A DNA stretch of 57,815 bases from a virus. Shown piece after piece: positions 3,777 through 57,815 of the stretch; within the stretch, counting starts at the first letter, position 1; each line of letters begins with the position of its first letter. The translations under genes were made by a program, and so were the position numbers. Under the pieces are notes generated by a model. It was given only the letters and a program-made list of their open reading frames with translations. It did not search any database and was not told where the DNA came from. The stretch covers positions 1 to 57,815 of IMG/VR virus record IMGVR_UViG_3300047564_006062. One strand, 5' to 3'.

Positions 3777-3945
3777 AAGAATCTCCTTGAATTCTGTTTT
3801 GTAATTGTCTAATTATTGCACTTTTTTCTTCATCAGTATATTTGGCCCAGTTGCTTATTTCGGCAATTGTTCTAAAGCATCCTGTACAAATATCATTTGT
3901 ATTTAATTTGCAAATATTATTGCAAGGCGAAGTTACGTTCCCCAT
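3769..3945 (-). CDS. DUF1289-type small cysteine protein
   Basis: A 58-residue frame from the ATG at 3943-3945. It contains SPCNNICKLNTNDICTGCFR followed by TIAEISNWAKYTDEEK and a terminal QLQNR helix. This is the full DUF1289 pattern: four Cys as CxxxC and CxxC, then an aromatic W-x-x-Y/M motif. The family is common in proteobacteria and probably binds metal; its function is unknown. The start lies within the last codons of queE (13-base overlap) and the stop overlaps the next gene by eight bases, so it is tightly coupled to queE. Confidence 0.85.
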   Translation of the reverse strand: MGNVTSPCNNICKLNTNDICTGCFRTIAEISNWAKYTDEEKSAIIRQLQNRIQGDSYV

Positions 3946-4796
3946 TCGTTCTTGAATAATGGTACTTGCAATCTATCACTATAACGTAATCCATGTCGCA
4001 TAGCTAATTCTGCCACTCGCCTATTATTTAATGAATAAACACTTTCTACTCCACCTACGGGCATTAGATAAACAGATCCATGAAAGCCGGCATTGCGATA
4101 TTGTTCAACTGCCTTTAGCGCATCCTTTACATCTTCATCTGTGGCTACAACAAACTTAAGATATGTATGTCCAATAGTCTGATATTGACGTACAATCTCT
4201 GGACGAATAGCCTCGATCCACGATTCTCCACTGGCTGGTAACTTTGCACTTACACTAAAAGTTACCTCGCGAGAAAAATTAGGACCAGGCATTTGCCATT
4301 GTACAAGATAATCTGCAAAATCAGCAGTTAACTCTTGAGTACCGTTAGTTTCAAAAGTAATTTCTTTTAACTTACGCATACGTGGGTGGTTGAGCAAGTC
4401 TGGATAACTACGCTGCCATCCTAACAGAGGTTCACCACCAGTGATTACCAGATGTTCATCCTTCCATTTTCCGTGCGGAAGAATTTGCATGATGCGCTCT
4501 ACAATACCGTCAGAATCTATTACTGGGCTCAATTCCTTGAATGCAGGATGCCAGCTGGCATAACTGTCACATCCGGTTTTAACTAACGGAAGTTCTTCGT
4601 ACTTGTGAAATGATTCGATGTTTGCATGGGTGTATGCAACATCATCTGCTTCGATACTTATTTCACCTCGCGGCATTCCAAACCCACGGCATGTAAAGTT
4701 ACATCCAAATGTACGGAGAAACACACTGGGTACACCCATGTATCTGCCTTCGCCTTGAACACTATAAAACAATTCTGCTACTTTAATTTTGCTCAT
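3933..4796 (-). CDS. queE: 7-carboxy-7-deazaguanine synthase QueE
   Basis: A 287-residue radical SAM enzyme that converts 6-carboxytetrahydropterin to 7-carboxy-7-deazaguanine (CDG), the core step of preQ0 synthesis. Visible motifs are VQGEGRYMGVPSVFLR at 13-28, ITGGEPLL near 118, FETNGT and FVVATDEDV. The cluster cysteines are atypical: C32 and C36 are in place, but the third Cys with its Asp (GCDSY) is at C76, after an insert of about 39 residues. It lies directly downstream of queD with a two-base gap, so the two are co-transcribed. With FolE and DpdA it points to 7-deazaguanine DNA modification. Confidence 0.93.
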   Translation of the reverse strand: MSKIKVAELFYSVQGEGRYMGVPSVFLRTFGCNFTCRGFGMPRGEISIEADDVAYTHANIESFHKYEELPLVKTGCDSYASWHPAFKELSPVIDSDGIVERIMQILPHGKWKDEHLVITGGEPLLGWQRSYPDLLNHPRMRKLKEITFETNGTQELTADFADYLVQWQMPGPNFSREVTFSVSAKLPASGESWIEAIRPEIVRQYQTIGHTYLKFVVATDEDVKDALKAVEQYRNAGFHGSVYLMPVGGVESVYSLNNRRVAELAMRHGLRYSDRLQVPLFKNEWGT

Positions 4797-27270: not shown

Positions 27271-27954
27271 TTATTTGAATTTTTGGCTTTTTCCGTAATA
27301 TTCGTCGTTGGGTTGAGATTTTTCATACATGACTGTATCAGTGTCACCCAATCGCCATTTAGGATTTTGTTCAACTACATACTTTCGAGTACAGACTTTA
27401 AAGTCTGGAAATTTCATATCTGTAGGGTTACTTGCTGCATCAAAGAATAGACAACGATTATTTGGTTGTGCTGCATATTGTCCATTATCTAATTCTATAA
27501 AATTAAAACTCTTATGATCTTCAGGCCATTCACTGTATCCAGTATCTATTGTAGAAGAATCAGGATGAGCATGATCTGCTGTAAAAAGATAATTTCCTGA
27601 ATACATGTTTTTGTTTTTGGCATAGAATTTGCAACTTAGATTTTTAAGAAAAGATTTTTGTATAATGGTAAAATCATAATCAAAACAATCCCAAATTTGC
27701 AATGTGTCTAAAGATAAAAACTGTGATGGATTAAGATCTTCTGTGCGTGATACAAACGCATGCAGAGGTAACTTGTCATAAAGTGCGCCATAATTTGGTA
27801 AGTATGCTTCAATTCTAAATGCCTGTCCTCTTATGCTTTTTAATGTTACCCATATACATGGCTCATATTCTCCATGTCCTTTTTGAAAATCATATAAAAA
27901 TTCTTTACGAATATAACAGTGTACAGGTGGTAGGTTGTGAGTTAGGAATGCCAT
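27271..27954 (-). CDS. Conserved T4-like protein, probably virion-associated
   Basis: A 227-residue protein beginning MAFLTHNLPPVHCYIRKEFL. It has conserved aromatic strands (YEPCIWVTLKSIRGQAFRIE, TLQIWDCFDYDFT, SGNYLFTADHAHPDSS) and a Tyr/Asp-rich C-terminus. It stands at the head of a block of virion-type genes and appears typical of the T4-like phages of aquatic bacteria. No enzymatic motif is visible; function unknown. Confidence 0.75.
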   Translation of the reverse strand: MAFLTHNLPPVHCYIRKEFLYDFQKGHGEYEPCIWVTLKSIRGQAFRIEAYLPNYGALYDKLPLHAFVSRTEDLNPSQFLSLDTLQIWDCFDYDFTIIQKSFLKNLSCKFYAKNKNMYSGNYLFTADHAHPDSSTIDTGYSEWPEDHKSFNFIELDNGQYAAQPNNRCLFFDAASNPTDMKFPDFKVCTRKYVVEQNPKWRLGDTDTVMYEKSQPNDEYYGKSQKFK

Positions 27955-49650: not shown

Positions 49651-50435
49651 AAATTGTCCTTGTGTAAACAAACTAAATCTTCACTTCTTTGATCAGGATG
49701 CGCTGGTTCCATTGTTTCTGGATAAAAAGCCACATACCCAGCTTCTTCGATTACTCGAAATAGTTCATTTGTATCAGCTTGGCTGTACGCAACGAACCAC
49801 TCAGTAAAAAGCACAGGTTTATATTTTACAAGAATATCTCTTGAACTCCTAATGATTTCTATGTCATGTCCTTCTGTATCTGTTTTCACAAATCCAATTT
49901 TGGCTATTTCTTCTAATGTAAGATATTTGTTGCACATATCCAGTAGAGTCATACCAGATACAGTGATACTTTCCCCGCTCATTCCTGCAACTCTTGCAGC
50001 AGTTTCGGCATCCCATGATTCACCAACAAGACCACCGTTGCACATACTATTTTGGTGATCTTTAAAAGTTAAATTATCTGCTGTACAATTGGTTACTGCT
50101 TCGTTGGCAATAACAAAACGTCCCAGATGTTGATTGACACTACAATTGAATTTTAAGTATGGAAGTATTACAGGATTTGGCTCCACAGATAGAACAGTGG
50201 CTCTACATCGACTCATCATGGGAATAGCAGTATCTCCTGAATGCCCGCCAATATCAATACAGGTCATTCCAGGTTTGATCCACAGCTTCCAAAAGTTTTT
50301 TTCAATGTAGTAATCATATATGGTTTGAAAGTCGGGCACCTTTTCTCTTGGGTGATCCATTTCAAACCAATAGCAGCTTTCGCCGCCGGGTAAATCAAGT
50401 TGATACCCGTTGCGTAATTTAACAGAAGTTTGCAT
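49647..50435 (-). CDS. FkbM family methyltransferase
   Basis: A 262-residue class I methyltransferase: KPGMTCIDIGGHSGDTAIPM (motif I), ATVLSVEPNPVILPYLKFN (acidic loop), GFVKTDTEGHDIEIIRSS (motif characteristic of FkbM) and PVLFTEWFVAYS. FkbM enzymes methylate sugar or polyketide hydroxyls. In phages with many glycan genes, a sugar O-methylation is plausible but unproven. Confidence 0.87.
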   Translation of the reverse strand: MQTSVKLRNGYQLDLPGGESCYWFEMDHPREKVPDFQTIYDYYIEKNFWKLWIKPGMTCIDIGGHSGDTAIPMMSRCRATVLSVEPNPVILPYLKFNCSVNQHLGRFVIANEAVTNCTADNLTFKDHQNSMCNGGLVGESWDAETAARVAGMSGESITVSGMTLLDMCNKYLTLEEIAKIGFVKTDTEGHDIEIIRSSRDILVKYKPVLFTEWFVAYSQADTNELFRVIEEAGYVAFYPETMEPAHPDQRSEDLVCLHKDNL

Positions 50436-50665
50436 TATCGTGATATAATTTTCCAGATTTTTTCTTTAGCTCTTTCATTGAGCCATTCTTGCTCGCCTAC
50501 GTAAGTGGGGGCGTTTTCAATTATTTCATCAAGAATAAATTTAATATTGTAAAGATCTTGTTTACAACCCCACGTAACAAAACCATCCATTCTTGGATCG
50601 GTTATGGCATAACCGCAAGAATGAAGTTGAGTTACAATGTTTTCAACATTCCAATGTTTTATCAT
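50435..50665 (-). CDS. Small conserved phage hypothetical protein
   Basis: A 76-residue protein: NVENIVTQLHSCGYAITDPR, FVTWGCKQDLYNIKFILDE, EQEWLNERAKEKIWKIIS. Two Cys and a helical C-terminus are visible. It overlaps both neighbours by one and four bases. Function unknown. Confidence 0.75.
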   Translation of the reverse strand: MIKHWNVENIVTQLHSCGYAITDPRMDGFVTWGCKQDLYNIKFILDEIIENAPTYVGEQEWLNERAKEKIWKIISR

Positions 50666-51084
50666 TCGTACTGTTCGCGAGTTTTACGCTCAGCATGTAC
50701 TGCGGTTGAAATAGTATCTATATTTTCAGGTTCATCATCTGATACGAAAATAACAGCTTCGGGATCTGCTCGGCGTATAGTAATCTCTTCTCCGTCCTTG
50801 ACTATCTTAAGACCGCGGCTCCATCTTCCGTGTTCAACAAGCACCCATTGTCCGACCCGAACATCTTGTTGTTCGGGTCCAATTGCGTACACTCTTGCCC
50901 ACCGTGGACGAATACCGTCAGTTTTTCCATCATCTCCTAATAATAGTATACCGCTACTTAATTGTCTACCTTCAAAACTCATTTCAGTAACAATTATGCT
51001 GTTTTTTAATGGACGTATTTCGCCATCTATTTCTACACCAAATTGATATCCACGTTTTTGATCAAACGGATTGGTAACTGCCAT
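50662..51084 (-). CDS. 31: Co-chaperonin GroES/gp31-like
   Basis: A 140-residue co-chaperonin cap. PLKNSIIVTEMSFEGRQLSS (mobile loop), GILLLGDDGKTDGIRPRWAR (roof and core) and VYAIGPEQQDVRVGQWVLVE show the GroES fold, with an added acidic C-terminus. T4 gp31 replaces GroES so that host GroEL can fold the major capsid protein. GAGGAGA precedes the ATG. Confidence 0.88.
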   Translation of the reverse strand: MAVTNPFDQKRGYQFGVEIDGEIRPLKNSIIVTEMSFEGRQLSSGILLLGDDGKTDGIRPRWARVYAIGPEQQDVRVGQWVLVEHGRWSRGLKIVKDGEEITIRRADPEAVIFVSDDEPENIDTISTAVHAERKTREQYE

Positions 51085-51096
51085 CTTTCTCCTCGC

Positions 51097-51501
51097 TTAA
51101 ATTCTTGTTGGACCTGTTTTTCGAACAGGTGTTTTTGTCGTTGGTTGATTTTTTGCAACGGTATCTGCCAGACTACCTCGTAGTTTGGGTTGAGCAATTT
51201 CTTCTTCAATTGGTGCAGTAGATTCAAATGCCACTATTGGTTCTACCCATTCATCAGTCAAATCTTTTTTGACTTCTTTACGACGAGGCTGTGGTGGTTG
51301 ATCAATGGCCATTGGTGTGTTTAATTTATAATGTTCCTGCATAATACGGTCTCTCGGAGTTTCTATTTTTCCACCTGGGCCCAATTGATCTCCACGAGCA
51401 TTAACTTTCATATTGCCTACTGCAATGGCGTCGTCGTTTTGTGCTATAATGGCATCCATATTAACTCTTTTGCCATTCGCTGTTGTATACACTCTTTTCA
51501 T
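51097..51501 (-). CDS. Conserved T4-like hypothetical protein
   Basis: A 134-residue protein. The N-terminal half (KRVYTTANGKRVNMDAIIAQ, NDDAIAVGNMKVNARGDQLG) looks strongly constrained and recurs in T4-like phages of aquatic bacteria. The C-terminal half is Pro/Lys/Thr-rich and probably disordered. AAGGAGA and a late-type GATAAATA lie upstream. A virion or assembly role is likely but unproven. Confidence 0.77.
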   Translation of the reverse strand: MKRVYTTANGKRVNMDAIIAQNDDAIAVGNMKVNARGDQLGPGGKIETPRDRIMQEHYKLNTPMAIDQPPQPRRKEVKKDLTDEWVEPIVAFESTAPIEEEIAQPKLRGSLADTVAKNQPTTKTPVRKTGPTRI

Positions 51502-51520
51502 GTGTGTCTCCTTGTGCGGT

Positions 51521-51528
51521 TATTTATC
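51521..51528 (-). promoter_or_regulatory. T4-late-type promoter motif GATAAATA
   Basis: Minus strand, containing the TAA stop of the upstream gene (51524-51526) and lying 20 bases before the ATG at 51501, with AAGGAGA between. Confidence 0.5.
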
Positions 51529-52042
51529 GTAAGAATTCTGTTATATCTAAATCATAATACATGCTGTTTATTCTATGCACGCCAATCAAATATAACACAT
51601 AACTGGCCACACTTGATCCTCTACCTACACCCCATACTATGTTGTTAGACCTCCATGTGTCAATCACATATTTTAGTTGCCTAAGCAAAGGAAATAAATC
51701 GCGTTCTTGATATAGCAACAATTCTTGGCCTACTCGCTGTAATTCTTCTTGAGTTCGGCATTGATCCAGTAGCCACTGTGCAATGTTCATGTTGGCATAT
51801 TCGGCTGGCATATGCCATTGTTTTTGTTTTGTTTGATGAAAAATGTCGACTGAATAATTTTCTGGATAAGGACGATACTCTTTAACCTGGGCAAAATCAG
51901 AAAAAGTTGTTCTCACTGCTGCATTGTATTGATCATAATCATCTACCCAAAATTCACCTATATCAAGATCTGGATTCTTATACAATAGTTCGCACAGGTC
52001 TGTGCTACTTACGTAAGCTTGTCCAAAATTGTCGTACTTCAT
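51524..52042 (-). CDS. DNA polymerase III alpha-like fragment
   Basis: A 172-residue protein whose C-terminus, IVWGVGRGSSVASYVLYLIG, then VHRINSMYYDLDITEFL, matches the DnaE GxGRGS-x-AxS element plus the following 'PixyxLxFExFLN' part of the alpha-subunit palm. The PHP domain and the catalytic Asp motifs of a full polymerase (over 1,000 residues) are missing. It is a free-standing mini-DnaE of the kind seen in T4-like phages. The ATG overlaps the small downstream-read gene. Role unknown. Confidence 0.78.
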   Translation of the reverse strand: MKYDNFGQAYVSSTDLCELLYKNPDLDIGEFWVDDYDQYNAAVRTTFSDFAQVKEYRPYPENYSVDIFHQTKQKQWHMPAEYANMNIAQWLLDQCRTQEELQRVGQELLLYQERDLFPLLRQLKYVIDTWRSNNIVWGVGRGSSVASYVLYLIGVHRINSMYYDLDITEFLR

Positions 52043-52278
52043 TTTTTAATGTCTATTAAATCTTTGAACTTGTCGTTTTTTGCTTCCATTTCTTCCATAA
52101 GTTTCCTATTACGAGTATCCATTTCGTAACGATAATTTTCTAATATCATTTGCATTTGTGGAATAACACTGGTAGGTCCGAATCTGTGAGCCTGATTCAT
52201 TTTTTGAGTTAGTTCGTTGTATTTTTTGTGTAACTCTTCGTTGGATAATTCTGAAAGATTGGAAACCAATGGGTGCAT
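52039..52278 (-). CDS. Small helical conserved phage protein
   Basis: Start at the ATG at 52276-52278 (MHPLVSNLSELSNEELHKKY, 79 residues), with AGGAGAT upstream; longer frames read through the terminator-like repeat at 52290-52344 and are unlikely. The rest is helical and charged (QAHRFGPTSVIPQMQMILEN, MDTRNRKLMEEMEAKNDKF). It looks like a conserved T4-like gene; function unknown. Confidence 0.77.
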   Translation of the reverse strand: MHPLVSNLSELSNEELHKKYNELTQKMNQAHRFGPTSVIPQMQMILENYRYEMDTRNRKLMEEMEAKNDKFKDLIDIKK

Positions 52279-52289
52279 GATATCTCCTA

Positions 52290-52344
52290 TAAAAAAGCTG
52301 GGCCAATTCCATAAATTCAATGGAGGAAAGTAGTCGACCCAGCT
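52290..52344 (-). terminator. Terminator-like two-tier hairpin after mazG
   Basis: Minus strand: AGCTGGG ... CCCAGCT arms (52338-52344 and 52296-52302) enclose an inner TCCAT/ATGGA hairpin and are followed by six Ts. It starts six bases after the mazG stop (52350) and precedes the ribosome binding site of the next gene. Confidence 0.65.
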
Positions 52345-52349
52345 ATTCA

Positions 52350-52784
52350 TTAAATGTCTCCTACAGTTCTGTTTTCAGAAAAGTGTACGTCAAATTCACC
52401 ACCGGGGTAGCGAGCTTTAAGTTTATTTACATTTTCCTCAATCACGTCGTTGGGATCTAATCTTAAAGCTCTACAGGCATTGATCCAATACCACATAATA
52501 TCGCCGAGCTCACGTTTCATATGAAATACATTTTCTTCGCTAAGTGCTTTTCCTTGAAAATATATCTTTTTAGGTATTTCACAAAACTCGCCAGTTTCTG
52601 CTGCAAGACCCAATGCTGCGGTTAGTAATAGCGGTACATTAATATCTGGGCCATGTGTGTCTGTTTCAAAGTTGAAGTTACCGTCTAAATAATCCAAACG
52701 GGACATGAAAGTAGTTAAATCATTGGAAGGTTTGGAAGTTACTGCTTCTACAAATTCTTTGTATCGATTCAAATCAATGGTCAT
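52350..52784 (-). CDS. mazG: MazG-like nucleotide pyrophosphohydrolase
   Basis: A 144-residue protein from the ATG at 52782-52784, preceded by AGGAG; an upstream in-frame ATG is unlikely. The metal-binding E-x-x-E ... E-x-x-D pattern appears in ALGLAAETGEFCEIPKKI and FHMKRELGDIMWYWINACRA, with NVNKLKARYPGGEFD after it. MazG-type enzymes hydrolyse nucleoside triphosphates and, in marine phages, are thought to alter nucleotide pools or (p)ppGpp signalling. Expression seems controlled by the inverted repeat and promoter directly upstream. Confidence 0.9.
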   Translation of the reverse strand: MTIDLNRYKEFVEAVTSKPSNDLTTFMSRLDYLDGNFNFETDTHGPDINVPLLLTAALGLAAETGEFCEIPKKIYFQGKALSEENVFHMKRELGDIMWYWINACRALRLDPNDVIEENVNKLKARYPGGEFDVHFSENRTVGDI

Positions 52785-52788
52785 AAAA

Positions 52789-52830
52789 ACTCCTGGTTTG
52801 CACAATTATAAACTATGCAAAGCCAGGAGT
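52789..52830 (-). repeat. 14-bp inverted repeat: terminator and RBS-sequestering hairpin of mazG
   Basis: ACTCCTGG/CCAGGAGT plus TTTGCA/TGCAAA arms around a 13-base loop with one bulged base. On the minus strand the 3' arm contains the mazG Shine-Dalgarno AGGAG and runs into TTTTTATG. A hairpin would form only in read-through transcripts from the upstream structural gene, since the local promoter starts inside the 3' arm. Confidence 0.75.
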
Positions 52831-52833
52831 CAA
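52805..52833 (-). promoter_or_regulatory. Sigma70-like early promoter of mazG
   Basis: Minus strand: -35 TTGACT (52828-52833), 17-base spacer, -10 TATAAT (52805-52810), inside the inverted repeat region. Predicted +1 near 52798, about 14 bases before the ATG, so its transcript lacks the 5' arm of the repeat. Confidence 0.82.
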
Positions 52834-52848
52834 ATAATATTGTTTCTT

Positions 52849-53922
52849 TTAACTTAATAGCCAGTCGGTGTTGGCTTGACTCCAGGTCAAACGAACCACG
52901 GTATTACCAGTACTGGCAATACTATTTGCTACCCATTTTACTTTTGCAGCATTTCCGGCACCGCCTTTGTTTACAAATACGGTCGTTATTGGCGCAAGGA
53001 AACTCAAAGTAATTCGTCGCCCATCCTCAGCGCCGCTTGGTAATGTGACATATGCATTAGCAATAGTTGCAGAACTTGCTGTATCTAAAAATAGATTATT
53101 GTAAAGAATATTAGCTGCAAAATCTTGATTATTGACCAATGTGACATAAGCATAATTGGAGTTGATAGTGCCACCTGCTTGTGCCACGTTACCGCCAATC
53201 CATGCATTACCAGCTATACCTGCTCCGCCCTTGGCCACAAATGATCCTGTCGTAACTGAATTACTTATAGTGGTGCTGTTGGCTACTACATTACCACCTG
53301 ACACGGTTAAACCACTAAAGTTAAACGCACGATTTCTTGTTAGGTCTTTGATTGCTATGGCTGAGCCATAATCCACGGTACTGAACTCAAAAAAGTAATC
53401 AGTGGCATTAGCAAGTTCTATTGCACTAAAAGTAACAACACTTCCGCTTAGACCAGCAATGGTATCTTTATCGCCGAGAGACACGTCACCGGGCAGAGTT
53501 AGAGTATAAAGTGGATTATTAACACTGACCCAAACTACAATTTTAGCGTTTTGATTAGCAGCATTACTTGGAAAATTAAATGCAAGCGTGGTCGCGCCTG
53601 CCAGTGTTATTTTTTGGAAATTACCGTTTGTAAAATCTATAGTGATTGAGCCACTTACCGCGCCAATGTTGTTATATGTTTCTCTGTAGCCGGTAAAGCT
53701 CGGATTGAGCATGATGTTACCTGCTAAATCGTTACTTAATGTTGTGTTTGTAAGAGCTGATTTAAAAACTGCTTTATTTTGAATATCTTCTAATTCAGCT
53801 TTTACATATGTAAAATTGTTACGAATGTTGGTAAAATTATCACGGAAACCTTGACTGTCATTGTCTTGGCCTGCAACAGGATATGTACCATCAATATTAT
53901 TTGGATTAACTTGGCTTGTCAT
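52849..53922 (-). CDS. Virion structural (fibre-type) protein
   Basis: A 357-residue protein. The N-terminal VNPNNIDGTYPVAGQDNDSQ, then GFRDNFTNIRNNFTYVKAEL is a motif of structural proteins in T4-like aquatic phages. The rest is Ala/Asn/Thr/Ser-rich with many short strands (LAGNIMLNPSFTGYRETYNN, GNAWIGGNVAQAGGTINSNY), as in trimeric fibres. It follows the 1,250-residue structural gene with a TAAATG junction. Confidence 0.82.
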   Translation of the reverse strand: MTSQVNPNNIDGTYPVAGQDNDSQGFRDNFTNIRNNFTYVKAELEDIQNKAVFKSALTNTTLSNDLAGNIMLNPSFTGYRETYNNIGAVSGSITIDFTNGNFQKITLAGATTLAFNFPSNAANQNAKIVVWVSVNNPLYTLTLPGDVSLGDKDTIAGLSGSVVTFSAIELANATDYFFEFSTVDYGSAIAIKDLTRNRAFNFSGLTVSGGNVVANSTTISNSVTTGSFVAKGGAGIAGNAWIGGNVAQAGGTINSNYAYVTLVNNQDFAANILYNNLFLDTASSATIANAYVTLPSGAEDGRRITLSFLAPITTVFVNKGGAGNAAKVKWVANSIASTGNTVVRLTWSQANTDWLLS

Positions 53923-56900
53923 TTATACGAATACTCCATTTTGTGGGAACTTGATATATTTATCCTCAGATTCTGGAATGATATATTTGTCTCTATTGTT
54001 ACTGAACGCTGTACCGCCGCGAACGCCACCTTTTCCTGGATCCCCTTCGCGACATTGGCAACTGCCTCCGTCAAATGTAGTTTCTTCACTTGCGAGTGAT
54101 CCTGTAAATATTCTATATCTTGGAATTGATTCACCTGCATTTGATCTATATTGTAAGGTGCTTGCAGGAAAGGTTTTACCAGTACGTACTTTGACAGTTT
54201 GATTTAAATTTATTTCGTTTTGGAATTCAAGCTTGATTTCTGCATCTTCTCCTTGCTCAAACCTTGAATATGCAAATCCCGGGCTGGCTTCATCAAAACC
54301 CGCTTCATCGCTATCAAATCCCAATGGTATCAACGGTTCCCAAGTGAGTTGCCATGCTCCTCCTCGTTGGTTAACATTTGATTGCTCTGATAATTTTTCT
54401 AAATATCCGGGCACCGTTGTTATACCGTCAGTTAAAATCCACCCGTCGTTGACGTATTCAGGACCAAAGTTTTGTTGGTTTACAAATATTATCAGCTCGT
54501 TCTCTACAAAATTTGTAACTCCGTCAATTAGACCTAATCTTTTACAATTTTCAACAGTGTTTCCATTTATTTGACTAAAAGGGCCAGACACAGCATAGTC
54601 GACTCGTGCAGTACCATCAAATTTTAAAACTGCACCAACTGATGCTGTTATATTAGAATTAAGAACCATGTTTAATGCTCTTATTCCGTTTACTGAAGTT
54701 AATTCCACAGAACGTACTACGGTATTTGCTGCCACAGTGGATAAAGTATCAATGCCTGTGCAAATCCATCCATAACCAATTTTTAAATTGTCTGTGATAG
54801 TAACAGCATTTGAATTAGTTACCGGAAAAATCATTGATCCTGTAATTACATCACTTCCTGCACCCAAGTTTGGAAATTTGTCAAATGTTGTATCTCTACT
54901 TGGTAAAAATCTCGCTGCATTAATGTCATAAAACTTGGATAGATAATTATCCCATTGGTATCTGTCCACTACAAAGTCAATTGAATTTAATTTGAATCCA
55001 CTATTTTTTAATCTATACGCTACAAGTTTTGAAGATCCTGGTTTAGTGTAAGCCACAACTACTGCTCTTGTTAAGCCTAACACATATCCGTTTTCCTGTA
55101 CACTCGTCATCCAACGAGGTAATGCTCCTCTATTGGTATAGCCTAAACCTTGTTCGACTCTATTCTGCATGTTGTTAAAACTGTTAGGATATATTGTGTC
55201 GTATTCAGACGCACCGAACTTAAATTTATTTTTATTATTAAGAGAAACGCTTAATGGAGGACCTTTAGTATCAAACTGTTGGCTATCAATAACATCTGCA
55301 TAAACTACTTCGTAATCTATACTGCCATCTTTGCCTATAGCTCGGGCAGTTTTTATTTCTCCAAAATTTAAATTTTTTGTATAATGATTTAAAGCAATGG
55401 AATTGACAACAGTATCAACTCTCGAGGCACTTAGTCCAGGAAGAAATAAAAATTTTAAATTTTTTTGTAGACCAAAAAACGCATCATCGGATCTATATAA
55501 TAACTCTTTAGGTATTATATTTGGATCTTCTAATACATTTTTTAACCCCAAGCGTTGTTCTTCTTTAGGCAATGCTTTCAGATACAGATTTTCATATGGT
55601 GCTAAATTTCTTGGTCTTATATGAACAACAAAGTTTTTCACTGCAGATATTGATTTATCTACTGATTCTGCTTTAACACTAAATCTTGCGTCTTGATCGA
55701 ATGTTGTATCCCCGCCATCAATTACAGTAGAAATTGCATTTGCTCTGGTAGAAACCACTATAGTATTGGTATCATTACTAAAGGTCAAAGGTGTGCCTTG
55801 AACAACATAAATTGCCGGTCTTATTTCAATGGTATTATTTTCAATTATGTCTGTAACTTCACATCCTGCTGCTACACCAACACCCTGCACACTCATGCCA
55901 ACTTCGATACCATCGGTAGTAGTCAGTGGTAAAAACCCACGTGCGCCATCAAGACTAAAATATCTAAAAGTCACTTTACCAACAAAATTTCCGGATCTCA
56001 ACATTTTGAGTCCTTGTGGAACTCTTCTATACGGTTGGTAAACAATGCTATATTCTAATTCTTTTCCAACGGTATTAGTAGCACTTATTGTTAACTCACT
56101 AATTGATCCATTGTCGATGAAGCCCAGATCGGTAGGTGTATTCCAAATAATTTCTTCGTTTCTGGTTCTTTTGACTGTAAGTTTAAACGTAACCGGATCA
56201 CTTAAATAATCAACAAATAGTGTCCTGTAAGCTCTGATTGTTACATCATAAGTTTTTGTGTCTTCGGGTTGTGTGGGCAGTGTGCCAAATAGCCAACCAG
56301 TGGCTTGATTTATCTGTAAACCTAAAGGCAACCCTTCTGCACCCTGATCAAAACGTATGGTGTCAAAACCAGTAACGCTGCTTATAAACAATACTTCAAC
56401 TACATCAGTTGGACTTGGAGCTCTTGTTGCCAGCGTTCCGGTGCTGTCGCTGGCATCGGTAGCACCTTGATTGTACTTTAAAACAGTGTCAGATACTACT
56501 TCACTCACAGTGAAACGACCGTTAAACGTGATATTAGTCACTCCATATACATCGATGATGTCACCGGTCACGTAACTGTGAGGGTTTGACAAGGTTACTA
56601 CAACTTCGTCGTTGGTTCGTACTATAGTTGATATAGCAAAATTAGTAAAACTAAAAATGTTAGGAGTTGATACGGTGTAATCATCAATAGCTGTGAGTAA
56701 TATGTCATTTACTCTTACGCAGATTTCGTTAGCTGCTGCCGGTTGACTTAAAATATAAGGACCAGCTGTACCATTTCCTACCAGGATTTGATCATCGGCT
56801 GCGTCCAGATCATCCATACCACTGAATGCCAATTCATCAACTTTCCATGAAATATCTTCGTCTTCAGGATCATACGCTAAAAATTTGTATGCAAACATGT

Positions 56901-57675
56901 CTCCAGACACTCGCACTGGTAGTGAATCCGGAGCATTTAAAATTACTGGCCTATATCTATTGTCTTGATCAATGCTTAAGAATGTATTGTTAATTAAAGT
57001 TATATCGTTGTCACCAGTAAAGTTTGATTTACTGACTACTAACACTCTAACATTTAATGTATCGTATTTTGTACCATCAGAAACTTGTATAGTGAAGTTA
57101 TAATTTCGATCTGTACTTTCAGGTAATACATCATATACAACAGATTCAATTCCTGTGGCTTCATAACCAAGCAGGTCAGTATTTGATGCTACAACATCAA
57201 GATAACCAGATAGTTTACCGTCTGCAGACAGGCTGGTACCTGGAGGTATATTACCAGCCAACAATGACCATGTTTCTGTAGCAGCAGGATTGGCATTTAT
57301 AGAGTCAAATTGATATTCCAAGTATTCTCCATCGAAGAATGCACCTATCAAATTGGGTCTTGGAAATATTTCTGGACCAGCTACATTGCTTACTGTTATA
57401 AAAAATGATCTATCTGCAACCTTGCCCTGAGGATTAATGGCCCTAATCGTAAATGAATACGAAGCAGTTTGTCCAACCGGACTTAGTATAACTGGTACTC
57501 CACGTAATTCGCCAGATCGTGTAAGATACATACCTCCCGGAAGTTCACCAGCAATGAAATTATAAATTAGAGGCTGTTCATCACTGTCCACTGCAGAGAA
57601 CTGCTGTGAAAAAAAGCGAGCTTCAGGAACAGTGCCTAAATCTCCTTTTGATGTGATCCAGGTTATTGTGCTCAT
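53923..57675 (-). CDS. Large virion adhesin/fibre protein with Ig-like repeats
   Basis: A 1,250-residue structural protein. It carries repeated putative Ig-type (He_PIG-like) domains: QPLIYNFIAGELPGGMYLTR, WSLLAGNIPPGTSLSADGKL, IRFDQGAEGLPLGLQINQAT with G-x-L-x-G turns and Y-x-F-T-I-x-V strands (YSFTIRAINPQGKVADRSFF). The C-terminus is Gly/Cys-rich (GGSCQCREGDPGKGGVRGG) and ends in a hydrophobic strand. Such proteins form long tail or baseplate fibres that touch the host. The stop lies directly before the next ATG. Confidence 0.85.
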   Translation of the reverse strand: MSTITWITSKGDLGTVPEARFFSQQFSAVDSDEQPLIYNFIAGELPGGMYLTRSGELRGVPVILSPVGQTASYSFTIRAINPQGKVADRSFFITVSNVAGPEIFPRPNLIGAFFDGEYLEYQFDSINANPAATETWSLLAGNIPPGTSLSADGKLSGYLDVVASNTDLLGYEATGIESVVYDVLPESTDRNYNFTIQVSDGTKYDTLNVRVLVVSKSNFTGDNDITLINNTFLSIDQDNRYRPVILNAPDSLPVRVSGDMFAYKFLAYDPEDEDISWKVDELAFSGMDDLDAADDQILVGNGTAGPYILSQPAAANEICVRVNDILLTAIDDYTVSTPNIFSFTNFAISTIVRTNDEVVVTLSNPHSYVTGDIIDVYGVTNITFNGRFTVSEVVSDTVLKYNQGATDASDSTGTLATRAPSPTDVVEVLFISSVTGFDTIRFDQGAEGLPLGLQINQATGWLFGTLPTQPEDTKTYDVTIRAYRTLFVDYLSDPVTFKLTVKRTRNEEIIWNTPTDLGFIDNGSISELTISATNTVGKELEYSIVYQPYRRVPQGLKMLRSGNFVGKVTFRYFSLDGARGFLPLTTTDGIEVGMSVQGVGVAAGCEVTDIIENNTIEIRPAIYVVQGTPLTFSNDTNTIVVSTRANAISTVIDGGDTTFDQDARFSVKAESVDKSISAVKNFVVHIRPRNLAPYENLYLKALPKEEQRLGLKNVLEDPNIIPKELLYRSDDAFFGLQKNLKFLFLPGLSASRVDTVVNSIALNHYTKNLNFGEIKTARAIGKDGSIDYEVVYADVIDSQQFDTKGPPLSVSLNNKNKFKFGASEYDTIYPNSFNNMQNRVEQGLGYTNRGALPRWMTSVQENGYVLGLTRAVVVAYTKPGSSKLVAYRLKNSGFKLNSIDFVVDRYQWDNYLSKFYDINAARFLPSRDTTFDKFPNLGAGSDVITGSMIFPVTNSNAVTITDNLKIGYGWICTGIDTLSTVAANTVVRSVELTSVNGIRALNMVLNSNITASVGAVLKFDGTARVDYAVSGPFSQINGNTVENCKRLGLIDGVTNFVENELIIFVNQQNFGPEYVNDGWILTDGITTVPGYLEKLSEQSNVNQRGGAWQLTWEPLIPLGFDSDEAGFDEASPGFAYSRFEQGEDAEIKLEFQNEINLNQTVKVRTGKTFPASTLQYRSNAGESIPRYRIFTGSLASEETTFDGGSCQCREGDPGKGGVRGGTAFSNNRDKYIIPESEDKYIKFPQNGVFV

Positions 57676-57815
57676 TACGTTTTTATAATAAATTGTATAC
57701 CCAAATACGGAGGCATGTTTGCATCCGTCCCTGATGAACCTGTGCTACTTATGCTTACACTTACGTTAGTAAATGAACTCGATGTGGGTGTTGCAGTGGT
57801 GGCACTTGACCTCGC
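57675..57815 (-). CDS. Partial tail-fibre/collar-type protein (C-terminus)
   Basis: Only the last 46 residues are in the window. They are Ser/Thr-rich and end in NMPPYLGIQFIIKT, the hallmark C-terminus of phage tail-collar/microcystin-dependent-type fibre domains. The stop at 57675-57677 overlaps the next ATG (TAATG). The rest of the gene lies outside. Confidence 0.75.
   Translation of the reverse strand, partial: ARSSATTATPTSSSFTNVSVSISSTGSSGTDANMPPYLGIQFIIKT

Follow-up and report, generated by a model that had tools for sequence, protein, structure and literature searches.

Early promoters of phage T4 are of the host sigma70 type, as is the promoter described below, and T4-type late promoters have ATAAATA or CTAAATA as their core. 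In IS10/Tn10, protection against read-through is provided by an inverted repeat that spans the resident promoter, and in RNA entering from outside, the transposase start is concealed by folding. In T4, RNA from upstream promoters folds into a hairpin over the ribosome site of the genes e, soc, 49 and I-TevI, and a late promoter within the hairpin frees the site by starting RNA past the 5' arm, with an approximately 100-fold effect of this control in the case of e (PMC3014915). According to a review, the T4 genes and homing endonucleases under hairpin control are all late genes (PMC2988022), and the comparison made in the earlier note, i.e., that the present locus is the reverse of T4 soc/e/49, is therefore apt. 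An early gene under such control was not found in the literature searched, which is weak evidence of absence.

The locus is a composite of promoter, hairpin and mazG start on the minus strand at 52782-52833 in an uncultured T4-like phage; the window, i.e., the whole stretch of DNA analysed, comprises 57,815 nucleotides (Table 1). In the 5' to 3' direction, the stop codon of the upstream gene U0 is followed by 15 nt and then by TTGACTCCTGGCTTTGCATAGTTTATAATTGTGCAAACCAGGAGTTTTTATG, the final three bases of which are the mazG start. The 14-bp inverted repeat that the earlier note had described around the promoter was recovered at this position, with 14 pairs and a single bulged C, the bulge being the reason why a gapless repeat finder missed it. 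The predicted promoter, TTGACT-17-TATAAT, agrees with the sigma70 consensus at 11 of 12 positions and is the top promoter-like site within 50000-57815; the promoter is thus present as claimed, and calling it 'perfect' was slightly too strong. In RNA folding, the stem continued through part of the -10 hexamer. The hairpin had a minimum free energy of -26.1 kcal/mol (z -6.9), which was equalled in 0 of 200 shuffles, and ranked as the most stable among the 50-nt folds of both strands of the 57.8-kb window. Next in stability within the window was a fold (GACCCGAACAACAAGATGTTCGGGTC, -25.1 kcal/mol; 50841-50890, minus strand) located in the coding sequence of a GroES-like gene (50662-51084). None of the Rfam 15 covariance models matched 52000-53500 at E values of up to 1, and the exact 40-nt hairpin sequence had no match in viral contigs. 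A tolerant pattern search of the record returned no second copy, the fixed gap of the pattern misfitting even the first one.

Table 1. Features of the U0-mazG junction and its surroundings (window coordinates)
Feature	Position	Strand	Remark
T4-late-promoter-like motif GATAAATA	53957..53964	-	42 nt before U0
U0, 357 aa, probable virion (tail or fibre) protein	52849..53922	-	judged from homologues
-35 hexamer TTGACT	52828..52833	-	overlapped by start of 5' arm
5' arm, ACTCCTGG-C-TTTGCA	52816..52830	-	wholly upstream of predicted transcription start
-10 hexamer TATAAT	52805..52810	-	within loop and upper stem; spacer 17
3' arm, TGCAAACCAGGAGT	52789..52802	-	
Predicted transcription start	52797..52799	-	inside 3' arm; inferred from promoter position
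mazG Shine-Dalgarno AGGAG	52790..52794	-	in 3' arm
Five-T run, possible intrinsic terminator	52785..52789	-	after stem; from sequence
mazG, MazG nucleotide pyrophosphohydrolase, 144 aa	52350..52784	-	Pfam PF03819 E 2.6e-9; PHROG MazG E 7e-45
MHPL-family gene, next in downstream operon	52039..52350	-	overlaps mazG stop

The transcription start was predicted to lie 5-8 nt past the -10 hexamer, implying a leader of approximately 14 nt. Since this position is within the 3' arm, both arms would be present in read-through RNA and only the second one in local RNA. For isolated RNA without ribosomes, the predicted cost of opening the mazG start region was 14.4 kcal/mol in the long (read-through) RNA versus 3.2 kcal/mol in the short (local) RNA, a difference of 11.3 kcal/mol before rounding. 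This prediction supports the proposal that the hairpin hides the AGGAG of mazG in read-through RNA. Folding might be slowed by ribosomes halted on the stop codon of U0, which precedes the stem by 15-20 nt.

We read the element, with a probability of about 0.78, as a translational insulator that has a promoter embedded in it and stands between a late and an early gene. A sigma70-type early promoter would be placed such that its transcription start lands in the 3' arm of the hairpin; local RNA would be devoid of the 5' arm and have a free mazG Shine-Dalgarno sequence, resulting in translation of mazG and the overlapping genes behind it. RNA arriving from U0, behind the T4-late-type motif, would carry both arms, fold and hide the ribosome site, rendering mazG silent, and in this phage it may also end at the T run. 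With only the RNA of the junction promoter being translatable, mazG and its overlapping neighbours would therefore be expressed early and be silent in late read-through. The occurrence of read-through and the size of its effect on translation belong to the inferred part of this proposal, as does the timing, because 'early' and 'late' were assigned from the promoter types, the late-type motif and the description of mazG in phage S-PM2 given below.

The mazG start codon was assigned to the ATG at 52784-52782, with relatives supporting the ATG at 52784; a mechanical list of open reading frames puts the start at a TTG (52805) inside the -10 hexamer. MazG of the window phage shares only about 56-60% identity with the best phage records. 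Since the MHPL-family gene overlaps the mazG stop, the two genes are probably translationally coupled, and an overlapping stop and start is common to most relatives. An extra N-terminal stretch, NSWVDYFPPLNLWNWPSFFIGDI, precedes MHPL at 52278-52350 (minus strand); it is also found in loci L027 and L028, and most relatives are without it. The adjoining 172-aa gene (51524-52042, minus strand) has a match limited to a short part of a DNA polymerase III alpha NTPase domain, and similar genes come after the MHPL gene in relatives. Elsewhere on the minus strand, a QueE-like radical SAM gene (3933-4796) and a ferredoxin-family gene (27271-27954) were noted as auxiliary metabolic genes. For phage S-PM2, a putative early promoter has been reported ahead of mazG, which is proposed to be early, as here; the part of that publication considered describes no hairpin arrangement (PMC2297514).

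U0 itself was without a family match. Long U0 homologues matched a PHROG structural-protein family weakly (4e-6), and the homologue in Agrobacterium phage Atu_ph07 adjoins a tail fibre gene. No close cultured relative was found, the only matches of U0 being weak ones to Agrobacterium phage Atu_ph07 and Sinorhizobium phage Phosso. Of 113 distinct sequences upstream of U0, 107 contained ATAAATA or CTAAATA in the last 70 nt, versus 12 of 565 random 70-mers, and the motif lay within 36 nt of the U0 start codon in 62 sequences. In many cases the motif coincides with the end of the preceding coding sequence, and its conservation may thus be partly at the protein level. The T4 late promoter TATAAATA was absent from the window, and the junction promoter is of the form TTGAC-17-TANNNT.

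Relatives were collected by searching viral contigs with MazG, yielding at least 80 loci, and with the N-terminus of U0, yielding a second locus set; neither search made use of the promoter or the hairpin. Pooling these with U0 matches in other loci, partly from a promoter-hairpin pattern scan, gave at least 135 distinct places downstream of U0. A promoter of the form TTGA(C/T)-N16-18-TANNNT followed by the next gene was present in 61 of the 135 places among the matches listed, and in most of the remaining cases the next gene overlaps or abuts U0, or something else comes after it. The junctions with a measurable leader numbered 58, most of them from searches without promoter or hairpin and some from the pattern scan. 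Among the matches listed, opening was costlier in the long than in the short RNA by 11.2 kcal/mol on average for these 58 distinct junctions, and by more than 5 kcal/mol in 53 of them, distinct sequences not being equal to independent events. Of the five junctions with little or no effect, two (L267, L253) are genuine exceptions; the other three (L109, L146, L114) fold well and were scored from a start codon further downstream. About two dozen MazG loci have the same composite, some of them with wholly different yet complementary arms (L011, L033, L039, L044, L059). A spacing of 17 nt was common to the relatives read by eye.

In the window and five whole records, six in all, hiding at junction promoters amounted to 8.8-11.8 kcal/mol versus a mean of 2.2 kcal/mol at 56 other early-type promoters with a start codon (Mann-Whitney p 3e-8), 6 of which exceeded 5 kcal/mol. 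Weaker versions at other early promoters (G008:C1 82390, 69113, 59750 and 30340; G002:C1 26311; G001:C1 120688) show shorter pairing of the -35 region or the spacer with the ribosome site, e.g., TTGACTC...GGAGTC. Upon swapping the upstream parts among a diverse set of 29 junctions of less than 75% identity, the blocking dropped from 12.2 kcal/mol in the native combinations to 5.5 kcal/mol in 812 swapped pairs (p 1e-12). Covariation of the arms, the lack of which the earlier note had named beforehand as speaking against a switch, was detected in the 29 aligned leaders: the score was 0.250 versus 0.120 (sd 0.012) after shuffling, with 0 of 500 shuffles as high, and slid pairings scored at most 0.078. 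The pairs just inside the Shine-Dalgarno complement occurred as five and three pair types, with 22 of 22 and 21 of 22 sequences paired, respectively, and TTGAC was invariant across the 29 relatives. Taken together, the comparative evidence argues strongly for reading the element as a switch.

The gene after U0 varies among relatives and encodes MazG, an MHPL/MEHPL-family protein or others. Where mazG lies directly behind U0, promoter and hidden site were present in 18 of 18 distinct leaders among the matches listed; where it lies behind other genes, 33 of 37 were without any promoter, again among the matches listed. A second group has the same composite ahead of an exonuclease gene or a small membrane peptide. 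In a search restricted to the exonuclease, 18 of 54 distinct leaders among the matches listed had the promoter, and 15 of these 18 hid the site by more than 5 kcal/mol; the remaining leaders were without a promoter and mostly stood directly after another gene. In L330, L374 and L388, the exonuclease gene is immediately preceded by a tRNA-like sequence instead of the promoter and hairpin. In ten records carrying the composite, a search with the promoter pattern revealed a single clear hairpin promoter per record, alongside several early promoters of the ordinary kind. As judged from these gene neighbourhoods, the element belongs to the late-to-early junction after a structural gene and not to mazG; the composite placed at mazG by the earlier note does exist there, and its assignment to that gene has to be given up, considering that other genes take this place in relatives and that mazG inside operons is without the element.

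Besides the TTGACTCCT...AGGAGT form, stems ending in AAGGGCTTTTT or containing the start codon occur. In L214, L220 and L269, the 3' arm contains the start codon and the 5' arm the -10 or -35 hexamer. Terminator-like stems of the type GCCCTT...AAGGGCTTTTT were found in L226, L242 and L256, with AAGGG inside the stem in L226 and L256. In L069 and L071, mazG is preceded by the promoter, and the promoter by a terminator-like hairpin of its own, CTCCTTTTAAGGAGG-TTTCTTTTT, the two jobs being arranged in tandem. In L244, L250, L238 and L240, the U0 homologue is followed by the promoter and then directly by ATGGAACATCC without a Shine-Dalgarno sequence; with the start codon approximately where the transcript should begin, this suggests leaderless early mRNAs. 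A leaderless start would, as a suggestion from these few sequences, likewise favour only RNA begun there. The different architectures and the 29-member set point to repeated evolution of the element.

The hairpin might mainly be an intrinsic terminator for the structural-gene transcript, its overlap with the next promoter and ribosome site being incidental to a compact genome and the hiding a by-product. A GC-rich lower stem followed by five T in the window, the terminator-like stems of L226, L242 and L256, the separate terminator-like hairpin before the promoter in L069 and a T run of at least four in 40 of the 58 junctions are in line with this explanation, and the locus resembles a terminator overlapping a ribosome site in that a T run comes after the stem, both in the window and in approximately half of the diverse relatives. 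It differs in that hiding of the start region is conserved and the T run is not: the start region is hidden by more than 5 kcal/mol in 27 of the 29 diverse junctions, and a T run of at least four is present in only 14 of them. Several loci (L033, L044, L214, L220, L231, L269) are without a T run, some having the start codon itself in the stem, and the promoter sits inside the stem-loop. We consider a mainly terminating role unlikely; as to the earlier claim of an end at TTTTT, the five T after the stem are present in this phage, where they may add termination, and this component is not conserved among its relatives.

Operators often lie where a palindrome is centred on the -10 hexamer, and a phage or host repressor binding to the palindrome found here could shut the promoter off. 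The arm sequences are, however, almost completely different among relatives while the pairing is kept, and L214, L220 and L269 have their pairing partners elsewhere. On the mRNA strand, mismatches in 41 diverse elements were G.U in 37 cases versus A.C in 12 (p 2e-4), and the sense strand folded better than the antisense strand in 49 of 56 junctions, a bias that is not expected of a protein-bound DNA palindrome and that other early promoters did not show. The preference for G.U marks selection for pairing of the arms at the RNA level and not a DNA operator, which, with its conserved and strand-symmetric arms, was rejected in view of the compensating arm variation and is the least probable of the explanations considered. 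Scarcely more probable is a processing or stability structure, such as an RNase site or a 3' end protection of the structural mRNA, with the promoter serving mazG independently. Hairpins at gene ends often protect the upstream mRNA, but such a function explains neither the choice of the next gene's ribosome site or start codon as the hidden segment nor the position of the 5' arm ahead of the predicted start.

Returning to the translational insulator, its closest counterparts are the T4 genes. As in T4 e, soc, 49, I-TevI and mobE, the start region pairs with RNA upstream of the local start site, and as in e, soc and I-TevI, the local promoter resides in the DNA of the 5' arm and loop, with -35 and -10 inside the hairpin and the start being predicted. 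In contrast to these T4 cases, in which a late gene with a late local promoter is kept silent in early or middle read-through, the promoter here is of the sigma70 type and the late-type motif lies before the upstream gene. Judged from its sequence, the junction element would correspond to T4 e/I-TevI control with reversed timing. It shares with IS10/Tn10 the inverted repeat over a promoter and differs in gene, element and purpose; no transposon is involved, and the genes downstream of the element encode MazG, MHPL-family proteins, exonuclease and others, with no transposase guarded.

For the large group of uncultured T4-like phages, we lean, with less confidence than for the locus itself, towards a general insulator at late-to-early junctions that permits translation only of RNA started there. 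It would have evolved repeatedly, with hairpins over the Shine-Dalgarno sequence or the start codon, with terminator-like stems and possibly with leaderless starts, and would keep early genes silent in late read-through, with a polarity opposite to that of the documented T4 cases. In a tightly packed phage genome, an early gene could thereby stand directly behind a late one without a clean terminator, translation depending on the origin of the RNA. A control known from late T4 genes would be extended to early genes with its timing reversed, and a search rule for temporal boundaries in uncultured phages would be provided by promoters lying within hairpins over the start of the following gene. 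MazG-like enzymes are thought to aid the early takeover of host metabolism, and their late shut-off may matter for infection.
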